Source: Haloarcula halophila (lineage in GTDB: Archaea > Halobacteriota > Halobacteria > Halobacteriales > Haloarculaceae). Taken from it: DNA of 64,000 bases. The stretch is from NCBI RefSeq assembly GCF_029278565.1, contig NZ_CP119560.1, positions 372,001 to 436,000 on the forward strand, in the 5' to 3' direction. The notes below the pieces were generated by a model that was not told where the DNA came from, made no database searches, and saw nothing but the letters and a program-made list of their open reading frames with translations. The stretch's first letter is position 1. Every line of letters begins with the position of its first letter. The position numbers were made by a program, and so were the translations under genes. Below, in pieces: positions 10,786 through 50,962 of this stretch.

Positions 10786-11244
10786 ATCGGGCTCGTCTCC
10801 CGCGAAACCTGGATGCTTCCCAGGTCGCTAGAAGCAGTCACTGAGACCGCATCGAACGGCTGGTTGAACTCGTCGGCGCCGGAAATTACAGTAGCCGTTG
10901 AGAATCAATGTACACCAGATCGAACTACAATCATCCGATCGACGTGTAAATTAGCTCAATGGGTACTATAACTGTCGGCTACTGTCGCCTCAATCGCGTC
11001 CTAATAGAGAATAGAACCCTTTAAACTCCAGAAGTTTGGATTTTGATCTGATTTAGGTCCCATTGTTCAAATCGATGACTTTTCAGACGTGAATATCCAT
11101 ATTATAATATCGTATAAGGAAATTGTACCGATATTTCGTTTCCACTCGTATAGCTCAGAAGTGCTGCACTCGATATGGAAACGTAGGTGCGTGAACGGAA
11201 GTCCGTCCGACTCTTTCTCCCCTCTGCGAGCCCTGTGAGACGCG
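10786..11244. other. Intergenic region holding dispersed repeat copy A
   Basis: About 460 bases. The left half carries copy A of the three-copy hairpin element (separate entry). The part from about 10990 to 11160 is AT-rich with no gene. Confidence 0.5.
10883..10970 (+). repeat. Dispersed hairpin element, copy A
   Basis: Related to copies at 35801-35889 (minus) and 50608-50694 (plus). Shared core: ACAC, a short internal loop, GATCG, a 13-nt loop, CGATC, another short internal loop, GTGT. Here the ACAC arm is at 10912-10915 and the GTGT arm at 10944-10947. All copies also stay open in one frame containing CTPDRT and RS.C, here ending in TAA at about 10972. Copy A is the most diverged of the three. 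Confidence 0.65.
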
Positions 11245-35399: not shown

Positions 35400-35800
35400 A
35401 TTTGATCTGTGGGACACAGCCAACACCGAGACAGACAGTCCCGTGGCGCTGTTCCCGGGCCGATACAGGTTCGTTCGGGAGTCGCGAACACGACGTGAAT
35501 GAGGATCGTGACGCGTGCCCTCTCAATCCGTATCCAGCTCACTCATTAACACCGATAAACGGTAATACGTAGTCTCGAAGCAAGTACGTTCTTTATATCC
35601 CCGAGTTTGGGATTTGTATCGGCAGGTATCCGATATTAAATATAGAATTGGCAAATTATCCTTAAAGTAAATCCAAATAGAGTTATTTCAGAGATTTTCT
35701 ATCCTTCCAAGCAACTTAAAGGAGATATTGCTATTTCTATCGGCATTTGATGGATACAGTACGCATTATTAATGAATACTACGGGGTGAGTAGGGCAGAC

Positions 35801-35889
35801 GATAGTAACAGTTGAAACGATAGACACATGGATCGCATTGCAGTCGTACGATCGGGTGTGCAGTGATGTTCACAGGCTACTATCGAAGG
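35801..35889 (-). repeat. Dispersed hairpin element, copy B
   Basis: Reverse-strand copy of the element at 10883-10970 and 50608-50694. On the plus strand the outer arms are ACAC at 35824-35827 and GTGT at 35856-35859, and the inner arms are GATCG and CGATC. The minus-strand frame reads CTPDRTTAMRSMC and stays open past the conserved core. Confidence 0.65.
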
Positions 35890-50561: not shown

Positions 50562-50962
50562 ACAGAATACACCGGCTACGGCAAGTTACGCGTTGGGTAG
50601 CAGGCCAAAAATTACAGGAGCCAGTGAACATCGCTGCACACCCGATCGTACGGTTGCAGTCCGATCGGTGTGTACATCGTTTCAATTGGTACTGTCGATC
50701 CCGCGGGTGTCCCGGAAACCCATGGATTGCCGTGGCTCGGCAAGTCACGATACCGGTACTGTTCGGAAGAACGCGTCGCTATCTCCGACGAATCGGACTG
50801 AGAACGGCGTACCATCGCTTGCCTGGCAGCAGCGAACTGATGAACCGAGATAGCTACAAAACCGTGCCAACGTGGCCCGCGTTATCTGCCGAATTGCGGC
50901 AACAATTTCGTCATACCACGAAACTAATACTTTAGATTCGTGTTGGCTGAGATAGAGTTTCG
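50562..50962. other. Intergenic region with repeat copy C
   Basis: About 400 bases between the hypothetical gene and the AAA+ gene. It holds the best-preserved copy of the hairpin element and no other recognisable gene. TATA-like ATACTTTAGA at about 50928-50937 lies about 30 nt before the AAA+ start. Confidence 0.5.
50608..50694 (+). repeat. Dispersed hairpin element, copy C
   Basis: Third copy of the element. The stem arms CCGATCG (50642-50648) and CGATCGG (50662-50668) are perfect here; an outer ACAC/GTGT stem lies beyond, and the loop is 13 nt. The open frame reads CTPDRTVAVRSVC. It lies about 270 bases upstream of the AAA+ gene. Confidence 0.68.

Follow-up and report, generated by a model that had tools for sequence, protein, structure and literature searches.

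Results

The window, that is the whole stretch of 64,000 nucleotides of Haloarcula halophila DNA analysed here, contains three copies of a short hairpin element, designated A, B and C, located at 10886..10971 (+), 35800..35885 (-) and 50612..50697 (+), respectively. Against a covariance model, R1, built from 28 copies, these 86-bp units score 54.9 bits (E=1.7e-11), 79.7 bits (E=7.5e-18) and 79.3 bits (E=9e-18), and copy C, with which the present analysis is chiefly concerned, belongs to the blastn family as well. A previous sequence-only reading had placed three homologous copies here, all intergenic. Their existence is confirmed, with blastn similarity far above chance in the genome itself (E<1e-4), and all three do lie between long open reading frames in the ORF list; the places given were right, although every end was 1 to 4 bases away from the covariance-model borders. 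Similarly, the ACAC-GATCG-loop-CGATC-GTGT core described in that reading is present but forms just the inner part of an 86-bp imperfect palindrome.

In copy C the terminal inverted repeats lie at 50612..50629 (+) on the left, where the sequence is TTACAGGAGCCAGTGAAC and the family consensus CTATAGTAGCCATTGAAA, and at 50680..50697 (+) on the right (family consensus TTTCAATTGTTACTATAG), as established from alignment A3 and the helix 1 pair count. The inner hairpin spans 50635..50674 (+) according to the helix 2 pair count and reads TGCACACCCGATCG-loop-CGATCGGTGTGTA, a single C being bulged. The layout is a degenerate C-TA followed by the 80-bp element and TA-G, with borders that read TTACAG...CTGTCG. 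Copy B retains complementarity between its ends, CGATAG/CTATCG, and copy A is the most divergent of the three. None of the window copies keeps the consensus CTATAG ends, all three being degenerate, and the string CTATAG does not occur anywhere in the window. All three are old copies, altered by mutation, of a haloarchaeal family of 80-bp hairpin elements. No orthologue of their flanks spanning the sites, and hence no empty site, was found among 30 other sampled Haloarcula genomes.

The family unit is 86 bp long, CTATAG...CTATAG, and is parsed as C-TA-[80-bp imperfect palindrome]-TA-G, with the consensus CTATAGTAGCCATTGAAAATCAATGCACACC(C/T)GATCGCACGACNGCAGTGCGATC(G/A)GTGTGTAAATCGTTTCAATTGTTACTATAG. 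CTATAG is found at both borders of most family copies and the flanks are unrelated. As expected of a MITE, the 86-bp unit has terminal inverted repeats and exact borders, and its 18-bp ends are paired in ∼100 copies; the 80-bp element encodes no transposase gene. Two unusual derivatives were seen. On the Natronococcus sp. CG52 plasmid NZ_CP099392.1 (locus L020, 3001-3130) a copy carries a ∼40-bp insert in its loop with the palindrome GAGCGAGCGAAGCGAGCGAG; this is one small repeat inside another, and a copy with such an unrelated insert shows that the hairpin loop tolerates additions. On Haloarcula hispanica pHH400 (contig C2, 269356-269395) the two ends of the element are separated by just 40 bp, this copy being a derivative with an internal deletion.

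The 4.04 Mb genome of H. halophila holds ∼15 copies, 14 of them blastn matches at E<1e-4 together with copy A, which was found by the covariance model only. Thirty of 60 relatives have the element, with large differences between congeners, some having none and others more than 15 scored copies, and it is present, patchily, in 79 of 243 sampled Halobacteriales genomes (E<=1e-6) across 31 of 77 genera, carriers including Haloarcula, Halomicrobium, Natrinema, Natronorubrum, Natronococcus, Natrialba, Halovivax and Halobiforma. The sequence-only reading had proposed a search for further copies, the lack of which would speak against it, and many were found across the order. Plasmid records with the element number 29; a phage collection searched with the element gave no match, and a search of viral contigs with one element pattern returned none. 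Within each of genomes G029, G012 (H. hispanica) and G006 there are near-identical copies with unrelated flanks, which indicates recent movement. All 8 full-length copies examined on pHH400 lie outside annotated genes, as judged from an incomplete gene table, and one is directly 3' of a gene's stop codon.

Comparison of occupied sites with empty ones in relatives shows in each case 4 bp in the relatives versus 86 bp in the occupied genome. One H. hispanica site reads GGTAC-CTATAG...CTATAG-CTTCGG, and the empty counterpart is GGTAC-CTAG-CTTCGG in G005, GACAC-TTAG-CTTCGG in G009 and GACAC-CTAA-CTTCGG in G019; at a second H. hispanica site relatives read CTGA, a stop codon. In Natrinema, one empty site is GTCGG-CTAG (G238, right flank poorly conserved) and another CCGG-CCAG-TGGT with clean flanks (G186 and G112). 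The simplest reading is that 80 bp enter CTAG at its TA, which is duplicated, giving C-TA-[80]-TA-G. An empty CTAG faces CTATAG...CTATAG in both Haloarcula and Natrinema, as would be the case for a MITE that inserts into TA and duplicates it, and for the variants TTAG, CTAA, CTGA and CCAG a single mutation away from CTAG or TA has to be assumed. Tandem copies with a single common CTATAG (L113, 1000-1165; L129, 921-1086) are predicted if the second copy inserts into an existing border. TA duplication is a signature of IS630/Tc1-mariner elements. Shigella IS630 prefers TA within 5'-CTAG-3' (Tenzen and Ohtsubo 1991, cited in PMC2170065). In the window CTAG is 2.4-fold rarer than dinucleotides predict, with 45 observed and 108 expected.

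An initial automatic consensus fold, calculated from 13 own-genome copies, contained only 6 pairs and no compensatory changes, a weakness that was resolved by a wider set of 28 copies with the full palindrome specified. In these 28 sequences 89.6% of pair cells are standard pairs and 13 pairs show changes on both sides, 10 in the outer stem and 3 in the inner; cells changed on both sides number 39, where shuffles give 14.4 and slid versions no more than 11. The inner stem (helix 2) is paired in 92.4% of cells, and shows changes such as that at columns 32/56, where 11 sequences have T-A in place of C-G. Structural covariation, which the sequence-only reading had put forward as a check, is therefore seen in both stems. 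In the outer stem it can be explained by co-evolution of two transposase-binding ends, while that of the inner stem is not something for which a transposase need account. An Rfam scan of the window gave no match above the gathering score.

The open frame that the three copies had been noted to share is real: of 109 distinct copies, 98 have a frame +2 (IVASENHCTPDRTTAVRSVCTSFQLLL and a stop) that is free of internal stops. However, we find no significant constraint at the level of protein. Frame 2 of the opposite strand is likewise stop-free in 101 of 109, and the synonymous excess does not reach significance (p=0.10 and 0.06). Variability is greater at third codon positions (0.156) than at the other two (0.064 and 0.082; permutation p=0.006); this test is confounded, however, because the inner stem pairs third positions with third positions. 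The frame is most readily understood as a by-product of the conserved palindrome.

A search for IS630 transposases located a frameshifted copy in the H. halophila genome (L163, 820-1878; contig C1 near 2.382 Mb) whose ends read CTATAGTAGTCGTTAGAA... and are of the CTATAGTA type; the element's own genome carries here a damaged relative of its candidate partner. Full-length elements of this kind, annotated in one case (Natrinema pellirubrum) as 'ISNpe3 family', are found in many haloarchaea; they measure ∼1,061 bp between CTATAG borders, have the ends CTATAGTA...TACTATAG around a transposase gene, and their transposase, at 131 bits, exceeds the NCBIfam IS630 cut-off of 100 bits. Between the right end of these full-length IS630 elements and the left end of the small one, up to 24 of 30 positions are identical, and over the inner 22 positions the observed value is reached by none of 10,000 shuffles, so that together with the CTATAGTA ends the small element has terminal repeats in common with an autonomous IS630, as a MITE should. 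Past the first 9 bp the two differ at several positions (TTAGAA versus TTGAAA). Across the 243 genomes, and uncorrected for phylogeny, the element and IS630 occur together more often than expected (Fisher p=0.0015 when any IS630 is counted and 0.0004 when close relatives are).

A transposase sharing the ends had also been suggested as a check, and here the outcome is divided: borders and a partial end match are provided by the ISNpe3-like elements, but a partner with the exact ends was not found. Using the element's own 18-bp ends, CTATAGTARCMAYTGAAA, no full-length transposon was recovered in G012, G041, G029 or G057, where these ends pair at 86 bp and not at ∼1 kb. The IS630 elements of other subfamilies that occur in H. 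hispanica and H. amylolytica lack CTATAGTA ends; at two H. amylolytica loci (L343 and L347) TTAAGATAACNTTTGAAAGTCAAGG, which resembles the inner repeat part TTGAAAATCAATG, lies near a different IS630 gene, on one side only. No IS630 transposase was detected in the copy-rich genomes G029, G027, G041 and G057 with Pfam DDE_3 or NCBIfam IS630 models, nor in copy-rich G093 with NCBIfam alone, and the enzyme of the latest bursts may thus have been lost, reside elsewhere or be one that our searches did not find. MITEs are known in general to outlive their transposase, but a closer partner than the ISNpe3-like elements may exist.

Discussion

The defined unit, its dispersed copies, the bursts and the empty sites support the view, already offered in the sequence-only reading, that this is a small non-autonomous mobile element, and its ends and landing sites suggest movement by an IS630 enzyme. 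Judging from sequence comparison, it is very probably a non-autonomous IS630-type MITE that would be mobilised in trans by an IS630-family transposase. By analogy with IS630/Tc1-mariner biochemistry, and ISY100 in particular (PMC2170065), such a trans-acting transposase would bind both ends, the 80-bp element would be excised through double-strand breaks and the excised element would then be pasted into the TA of a CTAG. Since CTAG is scarce in this sequence and has a stop codon within it, surviving copies would tend toward intergenic DNA or gene ends. That some copies sit at stop codons is probably explained in the same way, the target CTAG containing TAG, and beyond those positions we found nothing to support the proposal that the copies are DNA derived from a gene end.

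Of the other explanations, the one that is closest in kind retains a mobile element but assigns it to a transposase of another family that makes TA- or CTAG-type duplications (IS5/IS427-group, for example), with the likeness to IS630 ends reflecting target convergence. The lack of detectable IS630 in genomes with the youngest bursts and the differences between the inner terminal-repeat parts and the ISNpe3-like ends would both fit. We nevertheless regard it as unlikely, given that the 24/30 matches extend well beyond the CTATAGTA border into the repeat, that C-TA...TA-G borders are common to IS630 elements and the small element, and that the presence of the two is associated across genomes. 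The haloarchaea contain many palindrome-associated elements of the PATE and IS200/IS605 type (PMC3119063), and a remnant of hairpin ends recognised by TnpA, as the IS200/IS605-like proposal of the sequence-only reading would have it, must be considered. PATEs and IS605-type elements are likewise short and hairpin-bearing, PATEs also being transposase-free, but by definition they are without terminal inverted repeats and produce no target duplication (PMC3119063). Terminal inverted repeats are present here, as is the TA duplication within CTAG at empty-site comparisons, and the ends match IS630, so that an IS200/IS605 derivative or PATE is ruled out as a class and the chance of such an origin is next to negligible.

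The covariation of inner and outer stems, with 13 pairs changed on both sides, and the pHH400 copy that abuts a stop codon are what one would look for in a structured-RNA family, or in 3'-end regulatory hairpins (terminators, RNA-stabilising hairpins), kept for a host function. Copy numbers that run from 0 to more than 15 among congeners, sites that are empty in relatives and the lack of an Rfam match make this highly unlikely, and for the outer stem co-evolving transposase-binding ends can account for the covariation. The regulatory RNA that had been suggested is not needed as an explanation; if the copies act as RNA at all, this would be a secondary effect. Selection of the frame as a C-terminal tail (IVASENHCTPDRT...LLL and a stop), in the manner of the Rickettsia palindromic elements, would agree with its openness in 98/109 copies and with the variable third positions (p=0.006), yet seems most improbable with the other strand's frame 2 equally open, the synonymous excess not significant and the codon-position test confounded by third-third pairing in the inner stem. 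In addition, each insertion adds a net 82 bp and invariably changes the frame, and the element cannot therefore be in-frame inside a gene.

There is a further, rather unlikely possibility that the hairpin is itself selected in the mobile form, beyond recognition of the ends, as the bulged inner stem of ∼40 nt keeps compensatory changes across families while a transposase would need only the ends. Were this so, movement or copying could proceed via a folded single strand, or the hairpin could be protected or processed by a host factor, and bursts in genomes without IS630 would fit a route independent of a resident IS630.

An IS630-type MITE accounts for the intergenic hairpins scattered through one third of the Halobacteriales genomes sampled, hairpins that might be taken wrongly for regulatory RNAs or small proteins. 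It provides a precise annotation model, 80 bp with TA duplication in CTAG and tied to a candidate transposase, as well as presence/absence markers of recent genome change in Haloarcula and Natrinema.

Comparison with known systems

In the literature searched there is no name for the element family or for ISNpe3. The ISNpe3-like IS630 elements (Natrinema pellirubrum NC_019967 and relatives) have the same C-TA...TA-G borders, CTATAGTA repeats and up to 24/30 end identity, but are ∼1,061 bp in length with a transposase gene, whereas the 80-bp element has none of that coding part. The small mobile repeats (SMRs) of Haloquadratum walsbyi are likewise haloarchaeal, 80-110 bp in size, with prominent inverted terminal repeats and no transposase; by definition they cause no duplication of the target, and their repeats bear no relation to known transposons (PMC3119063). 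Our element gains TA and matches IS630 ends and so is not an SMR, a separation that is based on the SMR description and not on sequence. The element is comparable to the repeat unit of pneumococcus (RUP), for which mobilisation by IS630-Spn1 has been proposed (PMC2229807). Both are non-autonomous, ∼100 bp in size and dispersed in intergenic copies, with a TA target and ends that resemble those of an IS630 element. RUP has stops in all six frames while the haloarchaeal element has one open frame per strand, and the latter differs further, by description and not by sequence, in its almost complete hairpin, its covarying inner stem and its occurrence in many haloarchaeal genera. The element is a known kind, an IS630-type MITE, and not a new system, and it forms a widespread haloarchaeal family.
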